A DNA stretch of 64,000 nt. Origin: Chthoniobacterales bacterium. Lineage in GTDB: Bacteria; Verrucomicrobiota; Verrucomicrobiia; Chthoniobacterales; UBA10450. The stretch lies in contig JACDGS010000006.1 in NCBI GenBank assembly GCA_013821455.1, positions 1-64,000 of the forward strand, in the 5' to 3' direction. Below the pieces are notes generated by a model. It searched no databases. It was given only the letters and a program-made list of their open reading frames with translations, and was not told where the DNA came from. The position numbers and the translations under genes are program-made. This document shows positions 108-56,716 of the stretch, in pieces; the first letter of the stretch is position 1; every line of letters starts with the position of its first letter.

Positions 108-1259
108 ATGCTCTTTACGAACGGCCGCCTGATTTTTTCCGACCGGAGTGAGGACGATCTTTCGCTCCGAGTCGAAGATGGAAAAATCGCGGAGATCGGT
201 GGCGATATTTCCCGCCGCGGCGAGGAAACAATCGACCTCCAAGGCAACTATCTCGCTCCGGGTTTTATCGACCTGCATGTCCACGGCGCCGCGGGACGCG
301 ACACGATGGAAGGAACGCTCGACGCCTTCCGCGCGATCTGCGCCTACCATGCGAGTGGCGGGACGACTTCGCTTTGCCTAACGACGATAACTGCGCCGCT
401 GGAAGAAATCACGCGCGTCGTTAGGGCAATCGCCGCCGCGATGGCGGAAATCCCCCAAATCCGCGGTGCGCATGTCGAAGGCCCCTTCATCTCCCCCGAA
501 AAAAGCGGCGCGCAAGCGTCCCAGTTTATCGTTGAACCACGCGAGGAATTCGTTAGGCAATTACTCGCGGAAAGCGCGGCAATTCGACGCGTGACTCTCG
601 CGCCGGAAAGGCCCGATGCGCTGGATTTGATCGCCCGCCTAACGACGCTCGGAATCGCGGCGAGCGGCGGGCACAGCGCGGCCTGGGACGAGGAAGCGCG
701 CGCCGCATTTGAGTGTGGGATGCGCCAGATAACCCACACGTTCAACTGCATGTCGTCGATGCGCCGGCGCGATGGCGTGCGCACGGCCGGGCTGCTCGAA
801 TTCGCCCTCAGCGAGCCGGAGATTTTTTGCGAGCTGATCGCGGATGGGCATCATGTTTCCACCACGCTGATGCGCATGCTTTATCGCGCGAAAGGCGCCG
901 GAGGAATCTGCCTGGTCACGGATGCAACCGCGGGCGCGGGTTTGCCTAACGAGAGCCGCTTTTCGTTAGGCGACAAAGAATGCGTCGTGCGCGACGGTGC
1001 CTGCTGGCTGGCGGATGGGTCGGCGCTGGCGGGGAGCGCGGCGCGCATGATCGATCTCGTTAGGCAAATGGTCGCGCAGGTGGGCGTGCCGCTGCATGAG
1101 GCCGTGCGGATGGCGACGGAAACTCCGGCGCGCGCGATGGAATGGAAAAACAAAGGCACACTCGCGGAAGGAATGGATGCGGACTTCGCTGTGCTCTCCC
1201 CGGAGCTCGAGGTCGTGCGGACGTTCGCAGTAAGTCAGGCGTCCTCGCCTGATCGGTAA
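108..1259 (+). CDS. nagA: N-acetylglucosamine-6-phosphate deacetylase
   Basis: This cytoplasmic amidohydrolase removes the acetyl group of GlcNAc-6-phosphate to give glucosamine-6-phosphate in amino-sugar and cell-wall recycling. The 383-residue product has the family order: N-terminal beta domain (MLFTNGRLIF), LHVHG metal-site segment, HVEGPFISPEK with the metal-binding Glu, a GHSAA His, a THTFN His, and VTDATAGAG with the catalytic Asp. ATG 108 is chosen because homology begins there; the frame stays open upstream to 18 without family similarity. The last residues (AVSQASSPDR) are encoded by the interspersed repeat starting at 1231, so the C-terminus is repeat-derived. Five exact copies of the CCTAACGA octamer lie inside the gene. 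No other nag genes are adjacent. Confidence 0.93.
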   Translation: MLFTNGRLIFSDRSEDDLSLRVEDGKIAEIGGDISRRGEETIDLQGNYLAPGFIDLHVHGAAGRDTMEGTLDAFRAICAYHASGGTTSLCLTTITAPLEEITRVVRAIAAAMAEIPQIRGAHVEGPFISPEKSGAQASQFIVEPREEFVRQLLAESAAIRRVTLAPERPDALDLIARLTTLGIAASGGHSAAWDEEARAAFECGMRQITHTFNCMSSMRRRDGVRTAGLLEFALSEPEIFCELIADGHHVSTTLMRMLYRAKGAGGICLVTDATAGAGLPNESRFSLGDKECVVRDGACWLADGSALAGSAARMIDLVRQMVAQVGVPLHEAVRMATETPARAMEWKNKGTLAEGMDADFAVLSPELEVVRTFAVSQASSPDR

Positions 1260-1335
1260 GGCGGGCTTCCGGCCTGCCGCTTCGAAACACGCAGGCTGGA
1301 AGCCCGCGTGACTGTCAGGCAGGATGCCTGAGTTA
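1231..1335. repeat. Palindromic repeat of the tcaggct/ggaagcc family, copy 1
   Basis: About 105 bp with nested inverted repeats. The outer arms pair GTAAGTCAGGC-type sequence with GCCTGAGTTAC, and an inner pair is GCGGGCTTCC/GGAAGCCCGC. It overlaps the 3' end of nagA and supplies the stop codon of the converging dciA-like gene. A related element is inserted inside thrS at 9261-9368. Confidence 0.75.
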
Positions 1336-1689
1336 CCCGAGCCGGAAACGCAACTCGCGAATCGTCCGCGCGCCGAAGCGCTGCTTCAGCTTGCGCAGGA
1401 TTTCGGGTTTGGTCCGTTCCAGTTCGTAGCGCAAGGCGGGCTGGAGAACGTGGACATGCAGCGTGCCATCACGGAGCGAGATCGGTTGCGAATGCGCGGC
1501 GATGAACTCGCCCACCAATGCCTGCCACGCGCCGCGAACTTCTTTTTCCTGGAAGCGTTCTTTGAGGCCGAGCTTCTGCATCACTTTCGGCATGAGATCG
1601 GCGAGCGCCTGCGCGCGATCGGGCCGCGGCAAGTCGTTAGGCAGCCCGCGCCATTCGGCGAGAACAGCGCGGCGAAGAGAGGGCGTCAT
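1333..1689 (-). CDS. DciA-like protein (DUF721)
   Basis: A 118-residue protein with the DUF721/DciA pattern: an N-terminal helical part, a central W-x-x-x-V-G-x-x-x-x-x-H-S-x-P motif (AWQALVGEFIAAHSQPI), then a short beta segment ending in a KPEILRKLKQRFG helix. DciA is the ancestral bacterial replicative-helicase operator that helps DnaB load at origins, so a role in replication initiation is likely by family. It lies downstream of rpoN on the same strand, separated by a long hairpin at 1704-1764. Its stop codon is inside the repeat ending at 1335. Assignment to the DUF721 superfamily is fairly firm; DciA function is inferred. Confidence 0.75.
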   Translation of the reverse strand: MTPSLRRAVLAEWRGLPNDLPRPDRAQALADLMPKVMQKLGLKERFQEKEVRGAWQALVGEFIAAHSQPISLRDGTLHVHVLQPALRYELERTKPEILRKLKQRFGARTIRELRFRLG

Positions 1690-11325: not shown

Positions 11326-12549
11326 ATGCTTTCCGAAACGATCGAGCTGCGCGGCCACATTATCGATTCCCTGATTTTGCCCAAGGTTCTGGACGAGATC
11401 ATCACGCACGGCGCGACCTTTAAGATCAGCGAATTCAGAATCGGCGAAGGCCGCGCCGACCAGAGCTTTGCCCGGATCGAGGTGACTGGGCCATCGGCCG
11501 ACGAGTTGGACGATTTGATTCTCCGCCTGCGCCAGCACGGGGCCGAAGTGCTGGAAAAGAAGAGCGTGCAGCTCGCGGCCGCGCCCGCCGATGGTGTTTT
11601 CCCGGAACACTTTTACGTCACCACGAATCAGCAAACTTTTGCGCAGCTCGACGACGGCGAAGTAGAAGTGCATCCGGCGTTGATGGACAGCGCGATCGTG
11701 CTCGACCGAACTGCGCGAACCGCGACCGCGACGAAATTCTACGGCGTGAAAAAGGGAATGGAAGTGGTCGTGGGTCACCAGGGGATTCGGGTCGTTCCGT
11801 TCCAGCGCACGACCTCGCGGACGGATGTTTTTGAGTTCATGGCAAGCAACGTTTCGATCGAGAAACCGAAAACTGCGGTCATCCGCGAGATGGCCCGGGA
11901 ATTCCAAAGAGCCAAAGACGAAAGCGGCAAGATTCTCGTCGTCGGCGGACCGGCGATTGTGCACACCGGCGCAGCAGAGCATTTCGAAAAGCTGATCGAT
12001 TGGGGCTACATCAATCTGCTTTTCGCCGGCAACGCTCTCGCCGCCCATGATATCGAGAATGCGCTTTTCGGGACGTCGTTAGGCGTGTTCCTCGAAAAAG
12101 GCTCGCTCGCGGAAGCGGGCCACGAAAATCATATGCGCGCGATCAATGTCATTCGCAGCGCGGGCGGCATCAAACCGGCCGTGAAAAGCGGACTGCTCAA
12201 AAGCGGGATCATGTATTCCTGCGTGAAAAATGGCGTCGATTACGTGCTCGCTGGTTCAATTCGCGATGATGGGCCTCTCCCCGATGTGATTACCGACGCG
12301 CTCGAGGCGCAACGCGCGATGCGCGCGAAATTGGAAGGTGTCACCATCGCGATGATGATGGGCACGATGCTGCACTCGATCGCGGTGGGAAATTTATTGC
12401 CCGCGACGGTGAAAACAATCTGCGTCGATATGAATCCGGGTGTGGTAACGAAGCTGGCAGATCGCGGGACTTTTCAGGCAATCGGCTTGGTCACCGACAT
12501 CGAGCCGTTCCTGCGCGAGCTGACCGACTGCATCGAGCAACTTCGTTAG
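11326..12549 (+). CDS. TIGR00300-family ornithine cyclodeaminase (AgrE C-terminal-like)
   Basis: A 407-residue protein with the TIGR00300/LOR-SDH N-terminal architecture: an N-terminal domain beginning ETIELRGHIIDSLILPKVLDEI, and a nucleotide-binding core (GKILVVGGPAIVHTGA, INLLFAGNALAAHDIE, VKTICVDMNPGVVTKLADRGT). In cyanobacterial AgrE the equivalent C-terminal domain converts ornithine to proline plus ammonia. The next gene, 9 bp downstream, encodes the matching arginine dihydrolase, so the pair probably degrades arginine to proline. The start is ATG 11326, just after AAGGTG. The stop is formed by the octamer TCGTTAGG (CGT TAG). Confidence 0.8.
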   Translation: MLSETIELRGHIIDSLILPKVLDEIITHGATFKISEFRIGEGRADQSFARIEVTGPSADELDDLILRLRQHGAEVLEKKSVQLAAAPADGVFPEHFYVTTNQQTFAQLDDGEVEVHPALMDSAIVLDRTARTATATKFYGVKKGMEVVVGHQGIRVVPFQRTTSRTDVFEFMASNVSIEKPKTAVIREMAREFQRAKDESGKILVVGGPAIVHTGAAEHFEKLIDWGYINLLFAGNALAAHDIENALFGTSLGVFLEKGSLAEAGHENHMRAINVIRSAGGIKPAVKSGLLKSGIMYSCVKNGVDYVLAGSIRDDGPLPDVITDALEAQRAMRAKLEGVTIAMMMGTMLHSIAVGNLLPATVKTICVDMNPGVVTKLADRGTFQAIGLVTDIEPFLRELTDCIEQLR

Positions 12550-12558
12550 GCAAAGTTT

Positions 12559-13368
12559 ATGCGAAAATTGCTCCTCTGCGCGCCGGATCATTACGGCATC
12601 GAATACGAGATCAATCCCTGGATGAGTCGCGCGCGTGGCGCCGATACGCCGATCGCGCAGGCGCAATGGAAAGGATTGCACGAGAAGCTGCTCAGTCTCG
12701 GCTGTGATGTCCATCTTGTGCCTGGTGTGCCGCGGCTTCCCGACATGGTGTTTACGGCGAACGCCGGACTGACGGTGGGAAAGAAATTCATCCCAAGTAA
12801 TTTTCGCCATCAGGAGCGCGCTGCGGAAGCGCCACTCTTTGCCAAGTGGATGGAGGACGATGGCTACGAAATTATCTGGTTGCCGAAGGACCAATTTTTC
12901 GAGGGCGAAGGCGACGCGCTCTTCGTGGGGAACACGCTTTTTTGCGGCTATAAATTTCGCACCGATGTGAAAGCGCATCGCACTGTCGCTGAGATTCTGA
13001 AGTGTCTCGTGATCTCGGTCGAGTTGGTCGATCCGCGCTTTTACCACATCGATACCTGCTTTTGTCCGTTGACGGATGGCGGTGCCTTTTGGTTTCCCGC
13101 GGCTTTCGATGAATACGGACAACGGACGATTCGCGATCACGTGCCGAATCTGATCGATGTCCCGGAAGAAGAAGCGGTTCATTTTTCCTGTAATGCGGTC
13201 GTGCTCGAACAGGAGATCGTGCTCCCGGAAGGCGCGCCCAAATTGGTGGAGTCGTTAGGCAAACGCGGCTATCGCTGCCACGCGTTGCCGATGACGGAAT
13301 TCCTCAAGGCCGGGGGCGCCTGCAAGTGCCTGACGATGTTCATGCCACAGCGGGAAACCGTCACCTAA
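12559..13368 (+). CDS. Arginine dihydrolase-like amidinotransferase (ArgZ type)
   Basis: A 269-residue guanidino-modifying enzyme that likely hydrolyses arginine to ornithine, CO2 and two ammonia. The landmarks fit the ArgZ/AgrE subgroup rather than classical arginine deiminase: YEINPWM with Asn19, FTANAG with Asn68, HIDTCFCPL with the catalytic His, and GGACKCLT near the C-terminus with the nucleophile, probably Cys257. Asparagines at the two N-terminal positions are what distinguish dihydrolases from deiminases. Dimethylarginine hydrolase is the main alternative, but the neighbour argues for arginine-to-proline flux. The stop codon is part of a CCTAACGA copy (ACC TAA). Confidence 0.78.
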   Translation: MRKLLLCAPDHYGIEYEINPWMSRARGADTPIAQAQWKGLHEKLLSLGCDVHLVPGVPRLPDMVFTANAGLTVGKKFIPSNFRHQERAAEAPLFAKWMEDDGYEIIWLPKDQFFEGEGDALFVGNTLFCGYKFRTDVKAHRTVAEILKCLVISVELVDPRFYHIDTCFCPLTDGGAFWFPAAFDEYGQRTIRDHVPNLIDVPEEEAVHFSCNAVVLEQEIVLPEGAPKLVESLGKRGYRCHALPMTEFLKAGGACKCLTMFMPQRETVT

Positions 13369-13403
13369 CGAGAACTCGACGAGCGAGGCGGCCCAACCTT
13401 TCC

Positions 13404-22165: not shown

Positions 22166-22169
22166 TTCG

Positions 22170-23249
22170 TTAGGGAAGAACTCTGCGCCACTGAATGTGG
22201 TTTGAGCAAAGCTCGGCGAAATGCCGGTCGAGAATGCGATCTTCCGCGCGCTCTTTTACCATCGGGTCCTCCAAATTTGGCTCCGCTTTGCCGATGATCC
22301 GGCAGAGATGAAAACCTTCGCCGTGCGTGATCGGCTCGAGCGTTTCGCCCGGCGTGACGCTGAGAAATTTTTGCTGCAGATCCTCCGGCACATCTTCGAG
22401 CAGCACCTCGGTATGCCGATAGGGATAACGTCCTTCGCTCGCCACCTCCTCCATCGTCATGCCGTCCTGTTGCACGCAGAGGAGACCTTCCCGCGCGGCA
22501 TCGAGCGAATCAAACTCCAGGGTTTCCACTTCAAAATTTGTCAGCGGCAAACGGAGCGCGGAAATTTCGCGGGCCCGCGCTTCAGGAGAAAGCAGCGCCG
22601 CACATGCGCGGTGGTAAATTGCTTCCATCGCGATCTGCGCGCGCAGCCATTCCTCGTTGCGTCCCAGTTTGCCTAACCAATCATTTTCCTCACTCTCGGG
22701 CAGACCTTGTCGCTCGCGGAAATTCGCCTCCGCCACCGCGAAAATTTGCGCGTCCGCTTCTTCTTTCGCCGCGGCTTTTGCTGCAACGCGCCAGCTCAGA
22801 CGTTGTGCCATGCCATCGAGTTCACCTGAAAAAGTCAGCTCCATCGTGAAAAGCGCGCGCAAGTCTTCCGGCGCCGCCAGATAATCCGCCGCGTCGGTGG
22901 CGCCATCGTCCTCCGCCGTCTCGCTCCAATAACGCCTAACGAAATAACTGCTAAAATCCCCTAACGACAGCCCGCGTTCCGCGAGCCACTTCTCCGTCTC
23001 TTCCGCCGTGATCAAATCGTGGTTGTAACGAAACCGTTCCGCGGCGGTGTCGATCGCTTCATCGTCCGCTTCCTGCCCGGCTTCATCGGCTTTCTCTTCC
23101 ACCGCGATCTCGCGCAGAAAATTTTTCCAAGACGCCGCCACTTCTCCGCGAAAGTGCGCGGCATCAATCACATCGCGCACGGAAAAATTGCGATCTCCGC
23201 TGCCGAAAACAACCCTGCTCTCGACTGCATCTTGATTAGCTTCGGCCAT
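22170..23249 (-). CDS. SurA/PpiC-like peptidyl-prolyl isomerase or foldase
   Basis: 359 residues without a clear signal peptide. The N-terminal two thirds are helical and acidic, and the last third resembles a parvulin-type PpiC domain (FDSLDAAREGLLCVQQDGMTMEEVASEG...LQQKFLSVTPGETLEPITHGEGFHLCRIIGKAEP), followed by a C-terminal helix, as in SurA-type chaperones. First gene of the minus-strand export operon, 4 bp before the C39 exporter. A cytoplasmic foldase that keeps peptide precursors export-competent is a reasonable inference. The parvulin similarity is moderate and active-site residues are not certain. Confidence 0.65.
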   Translation of the reverse strand: MAEANQDAVESRVVFGSGDRNFSVRDVIDAAHFRGEVAASWKNFLREIAVEEKADEAGQEADDEAIDTAAERFRYNHDLITAEETEKWLAERGLSLGDFSSYFVRRYWSETAEDDGATDAADYLAAPEDLRALFTMELTFSGELDGMAQRLSWRVAAKAAAKEEADAQIFAVAEANFRERQGLPESEENDWLGKLGRNEEWLRAQIAMEAIYHRACAALLSPEARAREISALRLPLTNFEVETLEFDSLDAAREGLLCVQQDGMTMEEVASEGRYPYRHTEVLLEDVPEDLQQKFLSVTPGETLEPITHGEGFHLCRIIGKAEPNLEDPMVKERAEDRILDRHFAELCSNHIQWRRVLP

Positions 23250-30641: not shown

Positions 30642-30977
30642 AGGAAGACAAGAGATTAGCCACAGATAGACAGAGAGTCACACAGATAAAGGCATCTTAC
30701 TAAATCGCGTGTCATCCCGAGCGAAGCCGAAGGCGCAGTCGAGGGATCCCGCGGAGTTTCCACGAAGCGATGACCCGCAAGAACGAAGGCTTCCCAGACC
30801 TCAACGGGCTCCTTCGACTCCGCTGCGCTCCGCTCAGGATGACATGTGTGCTTACGAGATAGCTTCAAAGACGTCAGCCCAGTCTCGGACTTCTGTGTTT
30901 CATCTGTCTTCATCTCTGGCCGAATAAAACCATAAAATAACCGGGAGCATTTTTGCGGCACTGCCGACTAATGCTTT
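30642..30977. other. Intergenic region with a palindromic repeat
   Basis: 336 bp between divergent ECF sigma and VIT/VWA genes. A palindromic repeat occupies 30711-30843. The remaining AT-richer stretches either side (about 30645-30705 and 30880-30960) are where both promoters should lie, but I cannot pick confident -35/-10 boxes. Confidence 0.5.
30711..30843. repeat. Interspersed palindromic repeat (gtcatcc...ggatgac family)
   Basis: GTCATCCCGAGCGAAGCCGAAGG and CTGCGCTCCGCTCAGGATGAC form the outer inverted arms. Inner GGGATCCCGCGGAG and CAACGGGCTCCTTCGAC are partly complementary. Confidence 0.8.
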
Positions 30978-33212: not shown

Positions 33213-33221
33213 CTCATAACT

Positions 33222-34340: not shown

Positions 34341-34526
34341 CTCCCAGCCTAACGAGTAAAGGACAAAGTCGCTCGACGTTATAAAGTTGGTGAAACGCTC
34401 CCGGCAGGCTCTCCGGGGAAGCGGCGTTATCGAGCGTTAGAAAAGCCTAAAATTTAGGATTGCGAGCGGAATTGCACCCCGTCAGTATGGCCGAGAAGAC
34501 GACCTCTCACCTCCGGAGGAAAACAA
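34341..34526. other. Spacer before the large membrane protein gene
   Basis: 186 bp. It contains a CCTAACGAGTAAAGGAC string that also appears after the GHL10 gene at 28765, a short GCTCGA/TCGAGC inverted pair, and, at 34514-34519, a near-ideal Shine-Dalgarno sequence GGAGGA that selects the TTG start at 34527. No RNA gene is recognised. Confidence 0.4.
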
Positions 34527-37500: not shown

Positions 37501-37775
37501 GCGCGGCCGGCGCGGCGCGGCGGACAGCGCTGAATCGACTGGCCGGTCATCGCCTGGAGGCGATCCAGGTGGCCGGCGCCGCGCAATCGTCTTACCGTCG
37601 TATTAGCGCGCAAACCAGGCTGAAGATGATTGATGAGACCATCAATGAAATCGCCGGTCTTAGTCGCGGAGCGTTCGCTCCTCTCTCGGACCAACCCTTT
37701 TTTCGCGCAATCCTTTTCGCCTCCGGCGGCATCGGAGTAGGATCCCTGGTTCAATATCTCCCAAACCTTTTCTAA
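34527..37775 (+). CDS. Large membrane protein of unknown function
   Basis: 1082 residues from a TTG start, chosen because GGAGGA lies 7 bases upstream and no in-frame ATG precedes the conserved part. One N-terminal transmembrane helix (about 14-34) comes before a roughly 580-residue soluble region. Parts of that region (ILIIWERDDLPGRTTLDTLQALAKDL; LQAIGILGSDVYDKLMILRALRAELPGAVFFTNNLDARLG; NIPPFRDSYQTSVFTSTLL) resemble the two lobes of a periplasmic-binding-protein fold. Five or more transmembrane helices follow (about 625-655, 670-695, 715-735, 835-855, 870-890, 950-990) with charged loops and a soluble tail. No enzyme motif is visible. It could be a receptor or sensor; not assignable further. 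Confidence 0.75.
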   Translation: MAENDKKAGGSSIPWVNVTALLMAVAGGISAFFQPIVSSRPQKGSPTVEIKGEQDIDARLWQDPLRVALEHFEKSYATNPAYESSVRATRLAGVQSEIVQERVDPTKQRLLILPVMIPGGPYAEDNEGRLRTREAVVSGLAVSGYVPDSGEHIGYLVLPPPSSATNNPVPPVLLPVDVVPYEWFHPRYGNSTLTDPKGFERILIIWERDDLPGRTTLDTLQALAKDLRWDTEKEKVSVIGPGTSTGLVELLDRDRKIYQPNPHLPSAFQPDKQLQKIDLYAAMPTASDAVIALSLKSETAVSVRTLKTGPILHRPINTDDEIAQTIISELKRRKIDLRANPDTRKGAATLTKDPGSLTNIAVISEWDTIYGRALPLTLLAKIYRADSVEGLRSFMIGKTGNLDTGVIPEWFHTYSYQRGIDGRLPSDTTPVKSAAPASKDSSSPAPREATEGEDQSDYLRRLAVELAAKDQEIKRKGGKGLQAIGILGSDVYDKLMILRALRAELPGAVFFTNNLDARLGLREEWSATHNLIVVSPFGLSLDRKYQRNIPPFRDSYQTSVFTSTLLITGVLSAAEWLHPSPGKEWQHPSRIFEISRQGPWDLSLKEGLDPRRLDLSSWWGYPARYVAAFFAVLGFGAVLGWIALTAGGVGKWKEANWRTHLGIGALFAQTPVAAMLAGVIGVVCIWPLYSWQRVAGEPLAFLQGISVWPTEMMRVAVIVLCAHFVWKSSLALQENNRKIRGEYLSEKEDEIPAETAPEALRRFGAQLRADSYEAWLRLRKMLGPKKSHPESQPVAGPKTGEPTGTPNEQRFSAEELWQEYLVHGRWSKRLVRFGPLVLFYLIGGRALVAMLGGPVVPARGCLSFAVDNALLIICIVCTTALLFYVVDAIRLNRDLIKLFDQGLTVWPKSARLLNARKHLLNDEELSQYLNILLLAARTEVVCPLVNYPFIILVLLIVARNSYFDNWDWPLSLVIILTLNLAWAIYCSLQLYRAAGAARRTALNRLAGHRLEAIQVAGAAQSSYRRISAQTRLKMIDETINEIAGLSRGAFAPLSDQPFFRAILFASGGIGVGSLVQYLPNLF

Positions 37776-37857
37776 CATGATGCCCGGCTAACCCTGGGTA
37801 TGAGAAAGAAGAGCTGGCTACCCTGCGGGCTATGTAGATGACGGGAAAGACGCCTGC

Positions 37858-38922
37858 CTAACGTCGCACCCTCGCGTTCCCACCGCCCGCTAGCTCCAGC
37901 ACTTCCTGCAACGTCGCCATGCCTGTATCGCCCGGCGTAGTCATAGCCAACGCCCCGTGGGCCGTAGCTATCTCCAGAGTAAGTTGCGGGGGCTGTCCAG
38001 TAAGCATTCCGTAGATTAAACCTGCCGCAAAACTATCGCCGCCTCCGATACGGTCGAGTAGTTCGAGGTTAGGATAAGTGCGCGAGCGATAGAAGGCATC
38101 ACCTATCCACGCAATGCTACCCCAGTCATTGCGTGTAGCGGTGTGCACGCGGCGCAAGGTCGCGGCGGCCACTTGCAGATTAGGAAACTCTGTTCGCATC
38201 ACTGTGATGTCTTCCTCCGCCTGTGCGGCTTCCGCTTTCAGGATATCATCGGAGAGCGCTGCGGAAGAAGCGACTGACTGTTTATCGGAGAGCGCGCCAA
38301 ACACTACCTCAACATACGGAAGGATACGGCGGTTGAGCTCCTGCGCCGCACTAAAGCCACCGCGTTCCTGCCAAAGTGAGGCGCGATAGTTTAAGTCATA
38401 GGAGACTTTCACTCCGTGCTTCCGCGCCGCCTGACACCCTTGCAGAGTTAGTTCCGCCGTCTCAGTGGATAAGGCCGCAAAGATACCGCCGGTATGAAAC
38501 CAATGCGTCTTATGTTCGGCAAATAACTTATCAAAATCGAAATCACTCACTGTGAGTTGCGAAGCCGCGCTATGTCCGCGATCGACGCAACCACGCGCCC
38601 CACGCAGACCGAAGCCGCGCTCGGTAAAATTAAGCGCATTGCGCACCGACTTACCTATCCCGTCGTGCGCGCGCCATTTAATAAACTGGGTATCTACCCC
38701 GCCTTGCAGAATAAGGTCTTCGATAAGATGCCCGATCTCGTTATCGACCAGCGCCGTCACCACCGCAGTGCGCAAACCAAAACAACGCCGCAAGCCGCGC
38801 GCTACGTTATACTCACCGCCACCCTCCCAGGCGGTGAACTGGCGCGCCGTCCGGACCCGGCCTTCGCCCGGATCCATTCTGAGCATCACTTCGCCCAGCG
38901 AAATAAGATCGTAATGAGACAT
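37858..38922 (-). CDS. kdgK: PfkB-family sugar kinase, probable 2-keto-3-deoxygluconate kinase
   Basis: 354 residues. PfkB signatures are present: an N-terminal ISLGEVMLRMDPGEG, EGGGEYNVARGL for the sugar site, and the C-terminal LLDRIGGGDSFAAGLIYGML with the anion hole and catalytic Asp. KdgK phosphorylates 2-keto-3-deoxygluconate, the product of the hexuronate routes. The setting supports this: a hexuronate transporter, UxaC and a mannonate-type SDR are encoded divergently 2 kb away. Downstream of two dehydrogenases on the same strand, with 9 bp to the Ldh_2 stop. Confidence 0.82.
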   Translation of the reverse strand: MSHYDLISLGEVMLRMDPGEGRVRTARQFTAWEGGGEYNVARGLRRCFGLRTAVVTALVDNEIGHLIEDLILQGGVDTQFIKWRAHDGIGKSVRNALNFTERGFGLRGARGCVDRGHSAASQLTVSDFDFDKLFAEHKTHWFHTGGIFAALSTETAELTLQGCQAARKHGVKVSYDLNYRASLWQERGGFSAAQELNRRILPYVEVVFGALSDKQSVASSAALSDDILKAEAAQAEEDITVMRTEFPNLQVAAATLRRVHTATRNDWGSIAWIGDAFYRSRTYPNLELLDRIGGGDSFAAGLIYGMLTGQPPQLTLEIATAHGALAMTTPGDTGMATLQEVLELAGGGNARVRR

Positions 38923-38957
38923 ATAGGTCGTCTAGGTCGTATAAGTCTTATAAGTGC
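38917..38957. repeat. Short palindromic repeat (TAGGTCGTATA type) at a gene end
   Basis: Contains ATATAGGTCG-TCTAGGTCGTATAAG and the palindrome CTTATAAG. It lies at the junction of kdgK and the Ldh_2 gene and encodes the last residues (TYKTYTT) of the latter. A related copy is inside the tgt fusion gene at 55271-55305. Confidence 0.6.
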
Positions 38958-40047
38958 TCTCGAGAGCCGGCGCGCCGCACTCGGCGGCTAACTCATTCAG
39001 GGCTTCTACTTCAGCCTCGCTAAAGAGCAGGCCGCCGGCCTTCTCCGTATGTTTAGCATTCTCGGCTTCGGGCTGTCCGGGGAGCATGCAACTTTCGTTG
39101 CCATGACCGAGGATATCCTGCAACACCTGTCTCACATTCTCATGCTGTTTCCGGCCCTGCGCAAAAAGTCCACTACTAATCGCTTCAGGATGAATAACTT
39201 GAAAGTAAAACGATGAAGTCCGCTTCTCGCCCGCGGGAAGCTCTTTGCCGGTGAAGAGGGGATGCCCACCTCCGCCACGCAAAGTAGGAAGCGACCCACC
39301 TATAAGAGCGCCTAACACTTCGATCAGCACCGATAAGCCGGAGCCCTTGTGAGCTCCGAAAGGCAGCAACCACTGTGCTTTCTCGGGATCTATCGTGGGA
39401 AGTCCTTCGCTATCGACCGCCGCATTTTGCGGCAATGGCTTTTTTTCGCGGCGTAGCTGTTGCACCCGTCCCATCGCCACGGTGGAGGTAGCCCAATCGA
39501 TCACGATAGGAAAGCCACAGGCTTCCGTTGTCGGCAGTCCCCAGGAATGCGGGTTAGTGCCAAGCACTGGGAACTTACCGCCAAAAGGAACGACCTCCGC
39601 GAGGGTGGAAGTGCAGTTAGTATAGGCGATGTAACCCTTCTTCGCCGCTTCCATGACATAGCCGCCGCCCCAAAGATAATGGAAGGCGTTATCCACACTT
39701 ACCTGACCTATCCCGTACTTATCCGCCAGGGTCATGCACTTATCCATGGCGCGAAAAGCCACGCTCTGACCTAACTTAAGTTGTGCATCCCACGCTTCAC
39801 TCGCCGCAAACGGTTTATCGACAACTCGGATTTCCGCGCCCGGTTTGCATCCGCCGACCGCGCTGCCGAAAAGATGGTCAAGGTGAAGAGCTTTGATGGC
39901 GTTATGAGTGTGAATCCCATAAGTCGCGGCTAACTCACAAAAACGCGCGCCGTCCTCAGCTTCTTCCGACGTATAACCACGATGCAGATAAGCGCGCCGA
40001 ACCAAGTCATGGTGCACTATTGGAGGAACGATACGGTAAGTCGCCAT
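38932..40047 (-). CDS. Malate/L-lactate dehydrogenase-family (Ldh_2) oxidoreductase
   Basis: 371 residues of the Rossmann-free Ldh_2/MDH2 fold that uses NAD(P)H. Family signatures include GIHTHN (catalytic His), AFHYLWGGGYVMEAAKKGYIAYTNC, GTNPHSWGLPT, IDWATSTVAMGRV and LLPFGAHKGSGLSVLIEVL. Members reduce 2-keto acids such as 2,3-diketogulonate or ureidoglycolate; its position suggests a sugar-acid substrate. The C-terminal seven or so residues come from a palindromic repeat. It is followed by kdgK and preceded 3 bp away by a D-2-hydroxyacid dehydrogenase, so the three genes form an operon. Confidence 0.85.
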   Translation of the reverse strand: MATYRIVPPIVHHDLVRRAYLHRGYTSEEAEDGARFCELAATYGIHTHNAIKALHLDHLFGSAVGGCKPGAEIRVVDKPFAASEAWDAQLKLGQSVAFRAMDKCMTLADKYGIGQVSVDNAFHYLWGGGYVMEAAKKGYIAYTNCTSTLAEVVPFGGKFPVLGTNPHSWGLPTTEACGFPIVIDWATSTVAMGRVQQLRREKKPLPQNAAVDSEGLPTIDPEKAQWLLPFGAHKGSGLSVLIEVLGALIGGSLPTLRGGGGHPLFTGKELPAGEKRTSSFYFQVIHPEAISSGLFAQGRKQHENVRQVLQDILGHGNESCMLPGQPEAENAKHTEKAGGLLFSEAEVEALNELAAECGAPALESTYKTYTT

Positions 40048-40049
40048 GA

Positions 40050-41006
40050 CTAGAATGGGTTTGCCTGAATGAAGTCGGTATCGCCGTTGAGGTAATTGAT
40101 CAGGTTCAAGGTCGCGCGCATGGCCTGGCGTGGGATGCTCTCGAAAGTCTTGGAACCGATATGTGGAGTGATAATCACTCGCGGGTGTTTGAGTAAAGGA
40201 TTCTCAGGATGCGGTGGCTCCTGCTCCATCACGTCGGCGGCGTATCCGGCTAACTGTTCGGCGTCCAAAGCCGCGATCAAATCTGGTGCGTTGACTAACT
40301 CAGCTCGCGCGGTGTTGATCAGCAGTAAGCGCGGTTTGGCCAAAGCCAGCGTTCTTGCGTTGAGGAGGTGCCGAGTCTTGTCACTTAGGCCAGCATGCAG
40401 ACTAAGAATATCTACCTGAGTGATCATTGACTCTATTTTGTCGTGATGAGTTACCCCGTAGTCCTTCGCGAAAGCATCCGGCCAGTGACGATTCACCGCG
40501 TGCACCTTCAGACCAAAAGCCACCGCGCGCTTCGCTACTTCCTGTCCAATTCTTCCCAAGCCAAAGATGCCGAGACTTTTTCCCGCAAGCTCGTGACCGG
40601 TTAGTCGCAGCCACTTGCCATCGCGCACAGAGTTAGCCGACTCGACAAGGTGTCGCGCAAGCGCGAGAAGCAGGCAAAAGGTATGTTCGGCGACGCTGAC
40701 GTGATTCGTCCCCGGTGTGTAAAGAACAGGTAGCCTACGCTTCGTGCATTCTGCCACATCTATCTTATCGAGCCCGACTCCATACTTGCTAATCACTCGC
40801 AGTCGCGGGAGAGACTTAGCGATGACTGCCTTGGTTATCTCATCGTCGCCACAGAGAAAGGCATCGAACTCCCCGGCTAGCTCTAGCATGCGCTCTTCCG
40901 CTAACGGACCGCGCTCGCGCTGAATTTGGTAGTTTTGCTCCGCAAGCAAGTCGTGGTGCGGCCCAGGCGCGTCCTGATAGGAAGTAGTAGTCAGCAGCAC
41001 GCGCAT
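40050..41006 (-). CDS. D-2-hydroxyacid dehydrogenase (SerA/GyaR-like)
   Basis: About 318 residues from ATG 41006. ATGs at 41027 and 41051 would extend it, but family similarity begins at MRVLLTTTSYQDAPG, and the earlier start would leave only 25 bp to the divergent transporter gene. The NAD-binding GxGxxG is GLGRIG. The catalytic triad is visible: Arg in INTARAELVN, Glu in MEQEPP and His in TPHIGS. Probably oxidises or reduces a sugar-derived 2-keto acid; phosphoglycerate dehydrogenase activity is an alternative. First gene of the minus-strand sugar-acid operon. Confidence 0.85.
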   Translation of the reverse strand: MRVLLTTTSYQDAPGPHHDLLAEQNYQIQRERGPLAEERMLELAGEFDAFLCGDDEITKAVIAKSLPRLRVISKYGVGLDKIDVAECTKRRLPVLYTPGTNHVSVAEHTFCLLLALARHLVESANSVRDGKWLRLTGHELAGKSLGIFGLGRIGQEVAKRAVAFGLKVHAVNRHWPDAFAKDYGVTHHDKIESMITQVDILSLHAGLSDKTRHLLNARTLALAKPRLLLINTARAELVNAPDLIAALDAEQLAGYAADVMEQEPPHPENPLLKHPRVIITPHIGSKTFESIPRQAMRATLNLINYLNGDTDFIQANPF

Positions 41007-41076
41007 AGGACAGGGTTTCACGGCCATAATCGGCTTCGCCTCGCTGGTCAACTTCGTGTTAGTCTCCGACTTTCGT

Positions 41077-42356
41077 ATGTCTCCGCCGAGCCGCTCCCCC
41101 GTTTCACATTATCGCTGGGTTATCTGCGGCCTGCTTTTTTTTGCGACGACGATTAATTACATGGATCGGCAGATCCTATCGTTGTTGAAGCCGATGCTGG
41201 ACGATCAACTGCACTGGACGAGCACTCAGTTCGGCGAGATCAATGCCGCCTTCCAAGCCGCCTACGGAGTAAGTCTCTTTCTCTTCGGCTGGCTGATCGA
41301 TCGCTACGGGACAAAGATAGGTTACACACTTTCCATCGGTGCCTGGAGTCTGGCAGCGATAGGACATGCGCTCGTTAGTTCTATCCCGGGATTCTTCGGC
41401 GCGCGAATTGCCCTGGGGTTAGGCGAAGGCGGTAACTTTCCCGCAGCCGTAAAAGCCACCGCGCAATGGTTCCCCAAAAAAGAGCGTGCCTTCGCGACAA
41501 GTCTGTTTAACTCCGGCGCGAATGTCGGAGCGGTCATCGCGCCGGCCATCGTGCCCGCGATCGCTTACACTTATGGTTGGCATGCGGCTTTTGTCTTTGC
41601 CGGCATCGCCGGTTGGATATGGATAGCGGCTTGGTGGCCGCTCTTCAACGTGCCGGAAAGATCGCGCCGCGTCTCCGCCGCGGAGCTAGCCTACATCGAA
41701 TCAGACTCACCCGATGCCAACGAGAGCGGGAGCAGGGTTTCCTGGGGTGAAGTTCTCCAACATCGACAGGCCTGGTCTTTCATCGTCGCTAAGTTCCTCG
41801 CCGATCCTATCTGGTGGTTCTTCCTCATCTGGCTGCCGGATTTCTTTAAGAAGACACGCGGCTTGGATATCAAAAGCAGTTGGACATTACTCGTTAGTAT
41901 CTATGCCATCGTCACTGTGCTCAGTATCTTTGGAGGCTGGGTCACTGGCATCTCACGACGCGCGGATGGAGCGTCACACACGCGCGCAAGACTGGAATGT
42001 TTGTCTTTGCCCTATGTGTCGTGCCCATCGCCTTCGCGACCCGTGTGAGTGACTGGACCGCCGTCCTTCTTATCGGCCTGGCCGGCGCAGCGCATCAGGC
42101 TTGGTCGGCCAACCTCTATACGACCGTATCGGATATGTTCCCGAAACGCGCGGTCGCTACTCTTATCGGTGTCGGTAGTGCCGCCGGTTCGGTGGGTGGG
42201 ATGATTTTCCCAATTATCACCGGCATGATCCTGGATCATTTCTTGAATGGTTACTCGATTATTTTTGGCTTTTGTTCAATCGCATACCTCGTCGCGTTTG
42301 CACTCAACCACCTTCTTGCGCCAAAGTTCGAGCCGATAGCATTGGAAACATCATGA
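41077..42356 (+). pseudogene. Hexuronate MFS transporter (ExuT-like) with a one-base frameshift
   Basis: The first part (MSPPSRSPVSHYRWVICGLLFFATTINYMDRQILSLLKP...) is a textbook ExuT/anion:cation symporter N-terminal half. At about 41951 (GTCACTGGC|ATCTCACG) the frame breaks. Adding one C restores VTGHLTTRGWSVTHARKTGMFVFALCVVPIAFA and continuous homology to the natural end at 42356. As written, translation stops at 42048. Either a recent inactivating deletion or a sequencing/assembly error. The distal part still overlaps the uxaC start by 4 bp (ATGA), showing the frame was functional until recently. Confidence 0.82.
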
Positions 42357-43759
42357 CAACTTTCCTCGGCGATGATTTTCTGCTGCACTCCGACGTAGCG
42401 CGTGCGCTTTACCATGACTATGCCAAGCCTCAGCCTATCTATGACTATCACTCTCATCTACCACCGCGGCAGATCGCAGAGAATCATAAGTTCGAAAACC
42501 TGACCGAGGTCTGGCTCGCCGGTGACCATTATAAGTGGCGAGCCATGCGCTGGAACGGCGTTCCGGAAAGATTCACTACTGGCGATGCGAGCGCGTGGGA
42601 GAAATTCCTCGCCTATGCGCGGACCGTTCCGCGCACGTTGCGAAACCCGCTCTATCACTGGACTCACCTTGAGCTTCGACGTTATTTCGGCATCGAAGAG
42701 TTGCTCGATGAGACAAGTGCGGAATCGATCTGGCATCGAGCTAACGAACAACTCGGTGATCTGCCTGTGCACGAACTCTTGCGGAGAAGTGGAGTCGTCG
42801 TCTCATGCACGACCGACGATCCCACAGATGACTTAACACCCTACCTAAGTCTCCAGCGGGGCACCAACCTAACGACACGGGTTTATCCTACCTTTCGCCC
42901 GGATAAGGCGTTGCTCGTCGATCAACCGGTCGCCTTTAACTCATGGCTAGAGAAGCTCTCCGCCGCGAGTGGGATCGATTGTCACAGCTTCACTAACTAT
43001 CTTGGCGCACTAAGACAACGGCATGACTCCTTCCACGAAGCAGGGGGCCGCATTTCCGATCACGGCCTGACTCAGTGTGAAGCAGAAGATTGCACAGAGG
43101 AAGAAGCACGTAACTGCTTCGATGAGTCACGCGCCGGCCGCACCGTCACGCCAACGGCTGCAAAGAAATTCCGCAGCTATCTCATGCTTTTCTTTGGCCA
43201 ACTCGACGCCCCGCGCGGTTGGACGAAGCAGCTCCATCTAGGCGCGCTCCGTAATAATAACAGCAGGGCGCTGCAATCGCTGGGGCCTGATATTGGATAT
43301 GATTCTATCGGAGATTTTCCCCAAGCGGCGGGCCTTGCGAGTTATCTCGCCAAGCTAGACAGCAAAGGTCAGTTGCCGAAAATGATTCTCTACAACGTTA
43401 ACCCGAATGATAACTATCTCTTCGCAACGATGGCGGGTAACTTTCAAGACGACAGTATTCCGGGGAAAGTGCAGTTCGGGAGCGGTTGGTGGTTTCTCGA
43501 TCAGAAGGAAGGGATGGAAGCACAACTCAACGCGCTTTCGCACCTTGGATTGCTAAGTCGCTTCGTCGGGATGACAACTGATTCGCGCAGCTTTCTGTCC
43601 TTTCCACGGCACGAATATTTCCGGCGCATTCTCTGCGATCTCATCGGGCGCGATGTGGTAAACGGAGAGCTACCGCGAGAGATGAAACTACTTGGTGGAA
43701 TGGTAGCCGATATCTGCTTTCACAACGCGCGTCGCTACTTCGGTCTCCACGTCTCATGA
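42353..43759 (+). CDS. uxaC: Glucuronate/galacturonate isomerase
   Basis: 468 residues. UxaC interconverts D-glucuronate/D-fructuronate and D-galacturonate/D-tagaturonate. Signatures: YDYHSHLPPRQIAENHKFENLTEVWLAGDHYKWRAMR with metal-binding histidines, HWTHLELRRYFGI, SCTTDDPTDDL, and the C-terminal GMTTDSRSFLSFPRHEYFRRILCDLIG. Starts at ATG 42353 overlapping the transporter frame and ends overlapping the next SDR gene by 4 bp, so the three are translationally coupled. Confidence 0.95.
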   Translation: MTTFLGDDFLLHSDVARALYHDYAKPQPIYDYHSHLPPRQIAENHKFENLTEVWLAGDHYKWRAMRWNGVPERFTTGDASAWEKFLAYARTVPRTLRNPLYHWTHLELRRYFGIEELLDETSAESIWHRANEQLGDLPVHELLRRSGVVVSCTTDDPTDDLTPYLSLQRGTNLTTRVYPTFRPDKALLVDQPVAFNSWLEKLSAASGIDCHSFTNYLGALRQRHDSFHEAGGRISDHGLTQCEAEDCTEEEARNCFDESRAGRTVTPTAAKKFRSYLMLFFGQLDAPRGWTKQLHLGALRNNNSRALQSLGPDIGYDSIGDFPQAAGLASYLAKLDSKGQLPKMILYNVNPNDNYLFATMAGNFQDDSIPGKVQFGSGWWFLDQKEGMEAQLNALSHLGLLSRFVGMTTDSRSFLSFPRHEYFRRILCDLIGRDVVNGELPREMKLLGGMVADICFHNARRYFGLHVS

Positions 43760-47878: not shown

Positions 47879-47883
47879 ACTCG

Positions 47884-48909
47884 TTAGGCAAGAGGATCGA
47901 CGGCCGGTTTCGAAATACGCGTCGAGCGCCGGCGCGGCAGGGCGCCGAAAAGCCCCTGCGGACGCAGGAGCATGAGCGCGATCAAGACTAACGAGTAAAT
48001 AATCATGCGATTCTGCGCGATCCGCCTAACGAGTTCAGGAAGCCATTCGTAGCCGGAAACGAAGCGCAGGTATTCCAAGAGGACGGTGAGGAGAACAGCC
48101 GCGGCCGCGACGCCCGCGGTGCTGCCCATGCCTCCGAGAATAACCATGATCACGATCTCGATCGATTTTTGAAAATCGAAGCCGCTGGGGTTGATGTAAG
48201 TGGTGCTATGCGCATAGAGCCCGCCTGCCACACCGGCGAAGAACGCGCCGACGACAAAGGCGATGACCTTGTAACGCGTGGTGTTAATGCCGCAGGCCTC
48301 GGCCGCGATCTCATCGTCGCGCACCGTGAGGAAACCGCGGCCGTAGGTGGAATCAATCAGACTAACGACAAGATAGATGGTGAGTGCGGCGATCGCCCAG
48401 GTCCAGAAGAGAGTGGTATAACCCGCGATGCCGCTGTAGCCGCGCGGGCCGCCGACGGCATCGGTGTTCTGAATGACGACGCGGATGATTTCGCCGAAAC
48501 CCAGAGTGACTATGGCGAGATAATCGCCTTTCAAGCGCAGCGATGGAACGCCGACGATAAGACCGGCGACTGCCGCCGCGAGACCTCCGCCGAGCAGGAC
48601 CAGGATGAAGAGCGCGCCGATGGCAAAAGGATTCGTCCCGCCGAACGCTTTCAGCAAGCCCGCGCCATGTTCGGTCGAGAGCCAGGCCGCGACGTAGGCT
48701 CCTATAGCCATGAAGCCGGCGTGACCTAACGAGAATTGGCCGGTGTAGCCGTTAATTAGATTTAGACTTACCGCGAGGATGACGTTGATGCCGATGAAGA
48801 TCAACACCTGCAGGTAGTAGGAGTTGATCGCGCTGGAAAAATAAGAAGCCACAGCGGCAAGAATAATCGCAGCGAGGAGCGCGAATTTCTTGGCGTGCCG
48901 GTATTTCAT
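47884..48909 (-). CDS. livM: Branched-chain amino-acid ABC permease
   Basis: 341 residues with about 9-10 hydrophobic helices. Signatures: SLNLINGYTGQFSLGHAGFMAIGAY near the N-terminus and the EAA-like loop GYLTV-RDDEIAAEACGINTTRYKVIAFVVGAFFAGVAGGLYAHS. With LivH it forms the membrane channel. It is separated from livH by 272 bp holding a palindromic repeat. Octamers at 48025 and 48725. Confidence 0.93.
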   Translation of the reverse strand: MKYRHAKKFALLAAIILAAVASYFSSAINSYYLQVLIFIGINVILAVSLNLINGYTGQFSLGHAGFMAIGAYVAAWLSTEHGAGLLKAFGGTNPFAIGALFILVLLGGGLAAAVAGLIVGVPSLRLKGDYLAIVTLGFGEIIRVVIQNTDAVGGPRGYSGIAGYTTLFWTWAIAALTIYLVVSLIDSTYGRGFLTVRDDEIAAEACGINTTRYKVIAFVVGAFFAGVAGGLYAHSTTYINPSGFDFQKSIEIVIMVILGGMGSTAGVAAAAVLLTVLLEYLRFVSGYEWLPELVRRIAQNRMIIYSLVLIALMLLRPQGLFGALPRRRSTRISKPAVDPLA

Positions 48910-54678: not shown

Positions 54679-54697
54679 ATGCGGAGTGTGAGCTTGC

Positions 54698-56716
54698 CTA
54701 ACGAAATTGTGGATGCTGCCGGATTTGTTCGGCAAACGCTACTTGCTCTTCCGCGGAAAGCCCCGCCGGAAACCGCACATGCGAGCGATTCCACCGACCT
54801 ATCCATTCCGCGCCAAGCAACTCGTAGCCTTGCGTTGTCGGCGACCCGAGCGCAGCGGGCGTGAAAGCAATCGTAGTTTCTTCCTTCGCACCCGCGGGTC
54901 GCCCTTTAGCAACGAAGAAGCCCGCCGCCAGCAAGCCTCCGCGCGCCGGCGTCGAGTGTGAGTACGTAAAAAACTCAACCGCACGACCGGCGCATGTCGC
55001 GTACAGCCGCCGGAAAAGCTCCAGCGTCCATTGCTCGCGATGAGTCTTACTCGAAAACATATCGTAAAAGATCAGGTCCGGCGGCGCCGGCGCTTGTGTA
55101 AGTGTCTCGAGGAAGTCGCCAGCAACTAGCGTCCAGGTAAGACCCGGGTAGGGCTTCGATTTCCACTTTCCCTCGCGCAGGATATTTACCGGCCCACCGT
55201 GTCGGAGATAGGGAAACTTATCATCATGCCGCAGCGCTAGTCTTAGTGAATTGAGATCGTTTTCGAAACTGATAAGTCTCATAGGTCGTATAGGACCTAT
55301 CTGACCCATCGCTTCATAGCACTCGATCGTGGCCATGGCGTTCGCCGCCGCGCCCAGCCCCACATCCCAAACTACGAGCGGCTCAGCCGTCGCGGCGAGC
55401 CTTTCCGCGAGCTGCGATTGCTCGACATAAAGGCTGCGCGCCTCCTCCATCGGTGGCGTGCGCATATGCATGATCTCGCCCGACGTCACTTGCCGGATGC
55501 TGGCGAAACCTTCGCGCGCGATGTGCACCTCATAGTTACCTAACGAGTATAGCTTCACCCGCGCGGCCTTGGGACACCGAACAGGATTCTCCCGATCCGA
55601 TTCCTGGAGAATAGCGCGCTTCTCCCGATAGAATGCGGCGAAACTGCCTGCCAAAATACTCGCCCGGATATCCCGCATCAGTTGCTGGTAGAAATGGATG
55701 TTATGCTTGCCCAGGAGCTGCCAGCCAAGTGTCTCACTCGTCTTCGTAAGATGATGCAGGTAAGCTCGCGAGTAACGCGCGCAGGTGGGACAGTTACAAG
55801 CAGGATCGAGCGTCTCCTCCGAGAACTTATAAACACCCCGGCGCATTTGCAGAAAGCCACGCGAAGTGAAAACCGCGCCGCGTTGCGCGAGCTGCGTCGG
55901 CATAATGCAGTCGAACATGTCCACCCCGCGATGAACGGCTTCCAGAATATCGAACGGCGTGCCAACACCCATGAGATAGCGCGGCTTATCCTGAGGTAAC
56001 AGTTCCGCGGTAAACTCACACAGGTCTTCGCGCTCGCTCTTACTCTCACCGACCGCCAGACCACCGATGGCAAAACCATCAAACGCCATCTCGCCTAACG
56101 ACAACGCGCTCTGCCGCCGTAACTCCTTATGCAAGGCGCCCTGGACAATGGCGAACAACGCCTGCGGCGAATCGCCACGCGCGGCGAGACTGCGCCCAGC
56201 CCAGCGATAAGTGGTCTCGACCGCCGCTCGCGCCGTACCTTCATCCGCAGTCGAGGCGATGCATTGGTCGAGCGCCATCATGATGTCGCTGCCGATCGCT
56301 ATCTGTGTCTCGATACTTAGCTCGGGACTCAGGAGGATGGTCTTTCCATCGAGATAACTCTGGAAGACCGCGCCCGCCTCACTCATGGAGCGCGCATGTG
56401 GGAGCGAAAAGATTTGAAAGCCACCGGAGTCAGTGAGGACAGACCTATCCCAACTCATGAAGCGATGAATACCGCCCAGGCGGCGAAACACTTCGACGCC
56501 CGGTCGCAGGAGAAGGTGATAAGTGTTAGCGAGAAGGATTTGTGAGCCAGCCTCTTCCAGCGTGCGCGTCAGCTGCGCCTTAACCGTCGCCTGCGTTCCG
56601 ACCGGCATAAAGAGCGGCGTCTGGATCTCGTTATGCAAGGTACGAAACGTCGCCGCGCGTGCGCGCGAATCCGGCGCTGTCGCATCCAGCCGAAAGTTAA
56701 GGCGGGAAGGAGTCAT
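54698..56716 (-). CDS. tgt: tRNA-guanine transglycosylase fused to an MnmC-like methyltransferase domain
   Basis: 672 residues from ATG 56716. Residues about 1-365 are a complete bacterial TGT: LTDSGGFQIFSL, GGLAVGES, YLMGVGTPFDILEAVHRGVDMFDC and the zinc site CNCPTCARYSRAYLHH. TGT exchanges guanine-34 for preQ1 in tRNA, the key step of queuosine synthesis. About 390-672 resembles the MnmC/DUF752 methyltransferase (VVWDVGLGAAANAM, RLISFENDLNSLRLALRH, DLIFYDMFSSKTHREQWTLELFRRLYATC...LLAAGFFVAKGRP). A short stretch near residue 475 (GQIGPIRPMR) is encoded by a palindromic repeat. I cannot say whether the two domains work on the same tRNA. Confidence 0.88.
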   Translation of the reverse strand: MTPSRLNFRLDATAPDSRARAATFRTLHNEIQTPLFMPVGTQATVKAQLTRTLEEAGSQILLANTYHLLLRPGVEVFRRLGGIHRFMSWDRSVLTDSGGFQIFSLPHARSMSEAGAVFQSYLDGKTILLSPELSIETQIAIGSDIMMALDQCIASTADEGTARAAVETTYRWAGRSLAARGDSPQALFAIVQGALHKELRRQSALSLGEMAFDGFAIGGLAVGESKSEREDLCEFTAELLPQDKPRYLMGVGTPFDILEAVHRGVDMFDCIMPTQLAQRGAVFTSRGFLQMRRGVYKFSEETLDPACNCPTCARYSRAYLHHLTKTSETLGWQLLGKHNIHFYQQLMRDIRASILAGSFAAFYREKRAILQESDRENPVRCPKAARVKLYSLGNYEVHIAREGFASIRQVTSGEIMHMRTPPMEEARSLYVEQSQLAERLAATAEPLVVWDVGLGAAANAMATIECYEAMGQIGPIRPMRLISFENDLNSLRLALRHDDKFPYLRHGGPVNILREGKWKSKPYPGLTWTLVAGDFLETLTQAPAPPDLIFYDMFSSKTHREQWTLELFRRLYATCAGRAVEFFTYSHSTPARGGLLAAGFFVAKGRPAGAKEETTIAFTPAALGSPTTQGYELLGAEWIGRWNRSHVRFPAGLSAEEQVAFAEQIRQHPQFR
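55271..55305. repeat. Short palindromic repeat inside the tgt fusion gene
   Basis: Contains CATAGGTCGTATAGGACCTAT and GATAAGTC. Related to the copy at 38917-38957 by the shared TAGGTCGTATA and GACTTAT strings. It is in frame and adds about a dozen residues between the SAM-binding loop and the following strand. Confidence 0.6.

Follow-up and report, generated by a model that had tools for sequence, protein, structure and literature searches.

A densely iterated non-palindromic word in a Chthoniobacterales genome, read as a candidate DNA-uptake signal

The first 64,000 nucleotides of contig JACDGS010000006.1 from a Chthoniobacterales bacterium (Verrucomicrobiota; assembly GCA_013821455.1), hereafter the window, carry the octamer CCTAACGA 75 times. 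We found that the repeated unit is the nine-base word GCCTAACGA, whose inner core is intolerant of change and whose weak, one-sided 3' flank extends to +14; octamer and nine-base unit are together referred to as motif A. On balance, we lean towards reading this word and its flank as an uptake signal by which naturally transforming cells would recognise DNA of their own kind, its copies having been spread through biased uptake and recombination. To our knowledge, Neisseriaceae and Pasteurellaceae are the two bacterial families with established uptake signals. We favour this reading because the word is enriched on both strands, is constrained at the level of DNA, has an intolerant core and is conserved at orthologous sites; because copies are fewer in low-GC and, less firmly, in unshared DNA, show no polarity and occur alongside competence genes; and because abundance is limited to one family among the genomes searched, words are clade-specific and copies avoid one another at short range. 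A DNA-uptake-type signal, listed as plausible in a preliminary description of the window, is the best-supported candidate reading.

The preliminary description had counted 48 forward and 27 reverse copies by eye, and an exact search returned the same numbers, with the first copy at 377 and the last ending at 56101. Chance had been put at about two copies; dinucleotide shuffles of the window (n = 100) gave a mean of 1.14 and a maximum of 5. The sites sharing the first seven bases but not the last, estimated at about eight, numbered exactly eight (T in six, G in two). The enrichment survived comparison with a genome-wide background: the whole assembly (G000; 4,302,014 bases in 117 contigs) contains 5493 copies, 2752 and 2741 by strand, against 174 (91 and 83) of the reversed word. 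Motif A thereby reaches a density of about one per 0.8 kb. Within a 695,500-base sample of G000, also used for the variant and attC analyses below, CCTAACGA occurs 939 times and GCCTAACGA 797 times, the latter against a first-order Markov expectation of 4.7. Motif A is a short non-palindromic word, present on both strands far over expectation.

377..56101, 48 forward and 27 reverse: all 75 exact copies of CCTAACGA; 62 within genes, 5 at gene ends and 8 intergenic by our own gene calls
24244..36949, forward: run of 17 forward copies and one reverse copy (27632), in a region of mostly forward-strand genes

Gene context was derived from our own rough gene caller, applied to the window and to a 351,296-base sample of G000 (82% coding). 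Of the 461 motif A sites in this sample, 324 are genic and 107 intergenic, and the other 30 sit at gene edges. Within genes, the word was indeed found to be read in several frames, the four stop-free readings PND/PNE, xLTx, SLG and xVRx occurring 87, 101, 69 and 67 times, with 188 copies along the gene and 136 against it. Counted along genes by deciles, without a significance test, no gene-end bias stood out. Synonymous-codon shuffles (n = 30) of the coding DNA left a mean of 16.7 and at most 24 copies versus 324 observed, and the excess also outlasted a codon-pair model, which predicts 74.6 copies and is itself inflated by the motif.

Motif A also supplies stop codons. Three such cases had been named; those at 12543 and 13364 are stops, whereas the copy at 5009 is not, lying between two gene calls with 66 open codons upstream on the forward strand and 30 on the reverse. 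Beyond these, copies at 22167, 47881 and 54697 end genes.

12543..12550, reverse: motif A copy whose TAG is the stop of the forward gene 11326-12549
13364..13371, forward: motif A copy whose TAA is the stop of the forward gene 12559-13368
22167..22174, reverse: motif A copy supplying the stop of the reverse gene 22170-23249
47881..47888, reverse: motif A copy supplying the stop of the reverse gene 47884-48909; five of six scored flank positions present
54697..54704, forward: motif A copy supplying the stop of the reverse gene 54698-56722

To define the unit, we counted single-base variants of GCCTAACGA (positions numbered from 0). Variants are frequent at the edges (A or C replacing the base at position 0 or 7, A at position 1, G or T at position 8), under chance at position 3 and near or under chance at positions 5 and 6. 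Positions 2 and 4 each have one variant over chance (C to A, 18 versus 4.8; A to G, 19 versus 8.8) and no others. Much the same map was obtained for G014, a genome of another genus of the family (g11; genera are numbered g1, g2 and so on), in which variants with A at position 7 are commoner (46, next to 134 exact copies). Judged from genomic counts rather than from uptake, the core of motif A is thus intolerant and its edges tolerant. Intergenic copies in the 351,296-base sample are extended by G+8, T+9, A+10, A+12 and G+14. In genes, after correction for codon phase, the flank stands out at T-3 (131 observed versus 58 expected), G-1 (273 versus 90), T+9 (124 versus 58), A+12 (103 versus 64) and G+14 (133 versus 89), with weaker signals at -4, -2 and +8. 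The best extended form is about GCCTAACGAGTAAAGGA; all six scored extended positions are present at 26 of the 461 sites, 18 of them outside gene calls. The flank is weaker in G014, where only -1, +8 and +15 rise over threshold beyond the core (106 sites). Full-flank copies in the window are:

28765..28772, forward: motif A copy with all six scored flank positions, form GCCTAACGAGTAAAGGA; intergenic
34348..34355, forward: motif A copy with all six scored flank positions; intergenic
27632..27639, reverse: motif A copy with all six scored flank positions; within a gene call

Elsewhere in G000, locus L114 (G000:C10) has ten forward copies and one reverse copy between 2535 and 16078, many of them intergenic and in the full form GCCTAACGAGTAAAGGA; the copies at 6273 and 8458 share a longer repeat.

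Four sister genomes of the same genus (G001 to G004) could each be aligned over 8-25 kb of the window, with identities of 75.5-77.6%. Alignment was restricted to fetched loci, chosen among the matches listed in searches that scored 40 candidates per genome, and to BLAST segments of at least 200 bases at E 1e-20; 'not aligned' is meant by that criterion. Comparing only sites with all eight columns aligned, we found the window copy identical at 17 of 31 sites in G001, 2 of 8 in G002, 18 of 30 in G003 and 13 of 31 in G004. This amounts to 50 of 100 site-by-sister pairs, which are not independent of one another, against 14-19% for phase-matched control words. Conversely, 50 of the 63 sister copies are shared with the window. 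Whole ungapped codons were available in 79 cases; among the 38 coding cases that had changed, 28 alter the amino acids, a proportion that has no control, and many gains or losses therefore touch the protein. Frames, sister conservation and codon shuffles support the earlier proposal that selection or copying acts on DNA rather than on codons. A mutational or codon bias without function, in favour of which we found nothing, has a close to negligible probability: synonymous shuffling removes motif A, the word is conserved above control words, and near-matches in its core are mostly at or under chance.

Shared and unshared DNA differ in motif content. Between 8200 and 64000 of the window, sister-aligned DNA, 52% of this range, holds 38 of the 59 copies (1.32 per kb), and unaligned DNA holds 21 (0.78 per kb; one-sided p = 0.034). 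Unshared DNA thus appears poorer in motif A but is not empty. The longest gap between copies comprises a sugar-acid catabolic set, namely a PfkB kinase, an Ldh_2 dehydrogenase, a 2-hydroxyacid dehydrogenase, a major facilitator superfamily transporter and the start of UxaC. Across 128 five-kb bins, the motif A count rises with GC content (rho = 0.71), from 2.9 copies per bin in the lowest GC fifth to 10.2 in the highest, and eight bins are empty where 0.13 would be expected. The low-GC, motif-poor DNA may have been acquired recently.

36950..42867, no strand: longest copy gap, 5926 bases start to start (36942 to 42868), within the unaligned stretch 28764-44809
56717..64000, no strand: motif-free stretch with a sugar transporter, a ShlB-type transporter and ExbB fused to DUF2341; unaligned to the four sisters

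In the latter stretch, 60965-62836 encodes an ExbB/TolQ-type protein fused to DUF2341 and a LamG-like domain, motif-free, unaligned and adjoining the ShlB-type transporter gene.

Chi and the FtsK-orienting polar sequences (KOPS) are non-palindromic octamers that are spread over the chromosome and polar relative to replication. Motif A is alike in being a non-palindromic octamer and unlike in showing no polarity along three contigs of 120-124 kb, where strand counts of 72/60, 82/87 and 89/97 do not differ from even (ori and ter were not located). KOPS-type polarity, raised earlier as an analogue, was therefore not seen. Strand is unevenly distributed among stretches of the first sample (n = 21; chi-square 40.8 on 21, p = 0.006), and it follows gene direction (rho = 0.59, p = 0.016, 16 stretches) rather than GC skew (rho = 0.28, p = 0.29). 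A Chi-like recombination hotspot read by RecBCD or AddAB would fit the non-palindromic octamer and its somewhat greater richness in shared DNA. Chi is strand-biased, whereas the strand of motif A tracks gene direction, and the excess of motif A (797 versus 4.7) lies far over that of Chi; we regard such a hotspot as very unlikely.

We then surveyed motif A in 58 genomes of the order, G000 included, and in 387 genomes drawn from the larger phylum group. CCTAACGA occurs 1795-5493 times in the five g1 genomes, 2672 times in G005 (g2) and 2254 times in G014. The other 30 family genomes hold 97-771 copies, and 21 genomes of other families in the order hold 3-86; motif-poor members of the family are still richer than these outsiders. 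Among the 387 phylum genomes, no other family comes near, the best being G428 with 295 copies in 4.2 Mb (reversed word, 142). Within the set searched, high counts of motif A are confined to a single family, presumably UBA10450 (the Udaeobacter group). Counts of all words revealed AAGATCGACA (motif B) in other genera of this family. Counted as AGATCGACA, motif B reaches 4941 copies in G014; 15 genomes of g5, g6, g9, g12, g13 and g14 hold 249-1672 each, and those of g1 hold 69-89. Among named records, AV11 (11 in 21.9 kb) and AV43 (7 in 21.1 kb) carry the B word in the sampled DNA, and AV48 has three A words in 5.3 kb.

The two words follow the phylogeny of ComEC. The protein tree comprises 32 of 37 family genomes and two outgroups (G002, G021, G031, G033 and G035 were left out, their ComEC being fragmented, missing or unfetched); it rests on one gene, and several forks are weakly supported. 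Genera g1 and g2 group together as a clade (100/100), as do the B-bearing genera (100/99); within the latter clade G014, with both words, branches first. The pattern is dialect-like: A is abundant in g1, g2 and g11, B in g5, g6, g9 and g11-g14, and the words are unrelated. Neither word is plentiful in g4, and A is weakly represented in g3, g7, g8 and g10.

This arrangement resembles the known uptake signals in part. The uptake signal sequence (USS) of Pasteurellaceae combines a core of roughly 9 bp with a weaker flank, a layout that motif A shares, together with an in-gene orientation bias (188 versus 136). It differs from the USS in that words of the AAAGTGCGGT or ACAAGCGGTC type are unrelated to motif A, the phylum is another and no gene-end bias stood out. 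With the neisserial DNA uptake sequence (DUS), motif A has in common a short non-palindromic word in very many copies, an inner core and clade-specific words on the phylogeny. There is no sequence likeness, CTG occurring in neither GCCTAACGA nor its complement TCGTTAGGC, and DUS dialects are variants of one word, whereas A and B are unrelated and both present in G014. Passages of PMC3630211 describe an essential inner CTG core with less critical edges in the DUS, dialects that follow phylogeny, and two dialects, one base apart, in the single genome of Simonsiella muelleri. For the USS, a section of PMC2346458 reports that one orientation is favoured in genes and that two types are split between subclades; mismatch forms of uptake sequences are treated in part of PMC1939737.

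Spacing between copies was analysed in G000 and G014. In G000, copies 10-150 bp apart form 174 pairs versus 208.7 expected, a ratio of 0.83, which lies under the 1% quantile (0.85) of 35 seven-base control words (none of eight bases). In G014, motif B forms 38 pairs at 50-200 bp versus 85 expected (ratio 0.45, in a bin chosen post hoc, after a first look at spacing), under all 116 controls (108 of six bases and 8 of seven). A binding site for a DNA-architecture or segregation protein spread over the chromosome would agree with this short-range self-avoidance, with the strand-neutral spread and with the long asymmetric footprint. KOPS-like polarity is absent, replacement by an unrelated word in a sister clade would be unexpected, and so would thinning in low-GC DNA unless gain is slow. 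We consider an architecture site rather unlikely.

A methylation site had also been suggested. In this case, motif A would behave like HIP1, the highly iterated palindrome of cyanobacteria: a methyltransferase marks the site and methylation-dependent mismatch repair restores it. According to PMC4390886, HIP1 is likewise a very frequent octamer, with alternate words in some relatives and deviations at its ends, the outer bases. Both GATC and TCGA can be read within motif B. HIP words are palindromes associated with methyltransferases, whereas GCCTAACGA is not palindromic and no enzyme tracks motif A in the two families searched, PF01555 (matches in 50 of 58 genomes) and PF07669 (31 of 58). The motif-rich G005 and G014 have one PF01555 match each, and G005 has no PF07669 match. 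Their PF01555 enzyme is one that motif-poor genomes carry as well (20 genomes compared), with identities of 63-73% for G005 and 67-79% for G014, and that of G014 groups with motif-poor G023. Because the PF01555 enzymes of these 20 genomes do not set motif-rich genomes apart, methylation is weakened as an explanation; the one-sided flank to +14 and the short-range self-avoidance would also be unexpected under it. We retain it as an unlikely possibility. A conserved N6/N4 methyltransferase (G000:C23:56825-57535, L375, with counterparts in L373-L392; open frames of 268-317 amino acids) occurs in each of the 20 family genomes retrieved for this comparison, irrespective of how much motif A or B they carry. 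Independently, L066, L067, L068 and L072 (Verrucomicrobiota) contain a highly iterated, HIP-like palindromic word around CTTGGCCAAG, with 39 copies of CTTGGCCAA in 20.4 kb of L068. Further iterated words are TCCCGGGAA in L046 (Verrucomicrobia; 12 in 6.4 kb) and ATGGGACGC in L098 (Latescibacteria; 13 in 21.7 kb).

The machinery for transformation was sought in the same genomes. ComEC is present in 53 of 58 genomes and DprA in 54 of 58, both in G000. In G014, a PilB-type ATPase gene adjoins prepilin genes with similarity to Verru_Chthon cassette models, every one of these matches, that of the ATPase included, scoring under its curated cut-off, and G016 has a homologous cluster; these Verru_Chthon-type loci (L326, G014:C5; L327, G016:C1) encode a candidate pilus. 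A conserved pilin-like cluster in L317-L324 was rejected as the receptor, as it looks like type II secretion pseudopilins.

Several results weigh against an uptake signal. The strongest are that no receptor was found among the pilin-like proteins sampled and that motifs A and B do not avoid each other in G014. The neisserial DUS has the receptor ComP. Here, we collected 94 pilin-like segments in seven genomes, using only PF07963 matches and a pattern and without a search for ComP itself; they fell into 14 multi-member groups and 4 singletons, and none of the groups is confined to motif-rich genomes, each including at least one motif-A-poor genome. For the USS, a receptor (ComN) is only predicted (PMC12616744). 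As A and B do not avoid each other in G014, they are not interchangeable there, which leaves two receptors or another role for one of the words. Self-avoidance is also uneven: the nine-base form in G000 has a ratio of 0.85, at the 1% quantile and not under it; motif B in G014 shows no avoidance at 0-50 bp (33 versus 30.4); and motif A in G014 (6 pairs versus 16.9) stays within the noise of control words. Inverted pairs of motif A show no enrichment: among 64 pairs spaced 30-150 bp apart, 15 are convergent and 19 divergent. In DUS and USS genomes, such pairs serve as terminators, a frequent rather than a defining trait. ComEC and DprA are equally common in motif-poor relatives and hence not discriminating. 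Finally, the unaligned stretch 28764-44809 holds 12 motif A copies.

Under the uptake reading, a surface receptor of the transformation machinery would prefer fragments carrying motif A, and recombination of conspecific DNA would spread and restore copies until about one per 0.8 kb is reached. In the sister clade, AAGATCGACA would serve as another signal of this kind, unrelated in sequence, and one genome carries both. We infer that motif A is read by a receptor, that this receptor has its role in uptake and that the copies accumulated through uptake bias. More tentatively, the family may represent a further independent origin of uptake signals, one in which sister clades use unrelated signals (GCCTAACGA and AAGATCGACA), G014 is bilingual and reads the two separately, and gene cassettes may even carry the word in attC; we regard this wider picture as quite possible rather than probable. 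If true, an additional origin in a distant phylum would mean that sequence-tagged transformation evolves repeatedly, and that clades of these poorly studied bacteria are separated by barriers to gene exchange. It would also offer a natural before-and-after comparison of a whole genome changing its word, and the search for a receptor becomes testable by comparing the sister clades. Among the best matches in the open-licence literature, we found no paper on uptake signals in Verrucomicrobiota, Udaeobacter or Spartobacteria; the best matches to the letters of the word look, by title and start of abstract, like chance primer or probe hits.

Motif A also occurs at attC-like elements. Its GCCTAAC fits RYYYAAC, which we take to be the attC box. 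The order-mate G038, with 37 motif A copies, has a cassette-like array of seven repeats, six of which begin with GCCTAACGA and two of these with GCCTAACGAGTAAAAG; the beginnings match the motif A word and flank, and on reverse-strand copies the other repeat ends read TGGTTAGGC. In this locus (L027, G038:C7:84000-97732), attC-like repeats such as GCCTAACGAGTAAAAGCTCAGCGAC ... TGGTTAGGC recur every 0.4-1.0 kb, and the array is probably an integron. The 695,500-base sample of G000 contains four attC-like elements, which begin with CCTAACGAGAACAAGATCAGCCAC:

L109:19051: attC-like element in G000
L114:16079: attC-like element in G000
L123:14237: attC-like element in G000
L123:15371: attC-like element in G000

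Box fit, array and elements would suit an origin of motif A as the core site of gene cassettes, its copies being integron attC remains. A GTTAGRC partner at 40-140 bp accompanies 31 of 797 copies versus about 7% by chance, that is, fewer, and most copies lie within genes in all stop-free frames. We therefore rejected attC as the origin of the bulk of copies and hold it to be extremely unlikely; in our reading, cassettes carry motif A by chance or selection and are not its source.

The window contains other repeats as well. A hairpin repeat of ~110 bp at 9257-9368, with many copies in the genus, lies in frame inside the threonyl-tRNA synthetase gene (8364-10331). The product of this gene has its best matches among named Verrucomicrobiota records, such as Spartobacteria palsa_1392 and Verrucomicrobia AV48 (81% identity), in line with the order Chthoniobacterales. 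A pair at 13404-13540, similar to repetitive extragenic palindromes, has 39-nt inverted arms (GTCATCC...GGATGAC) and likewise many copies in the genus. At 27448-27563 lies a dispersed repeat of ~116 bp, in which inverted arms were not found and which has more than 20 copies in G000 among the matches listed.

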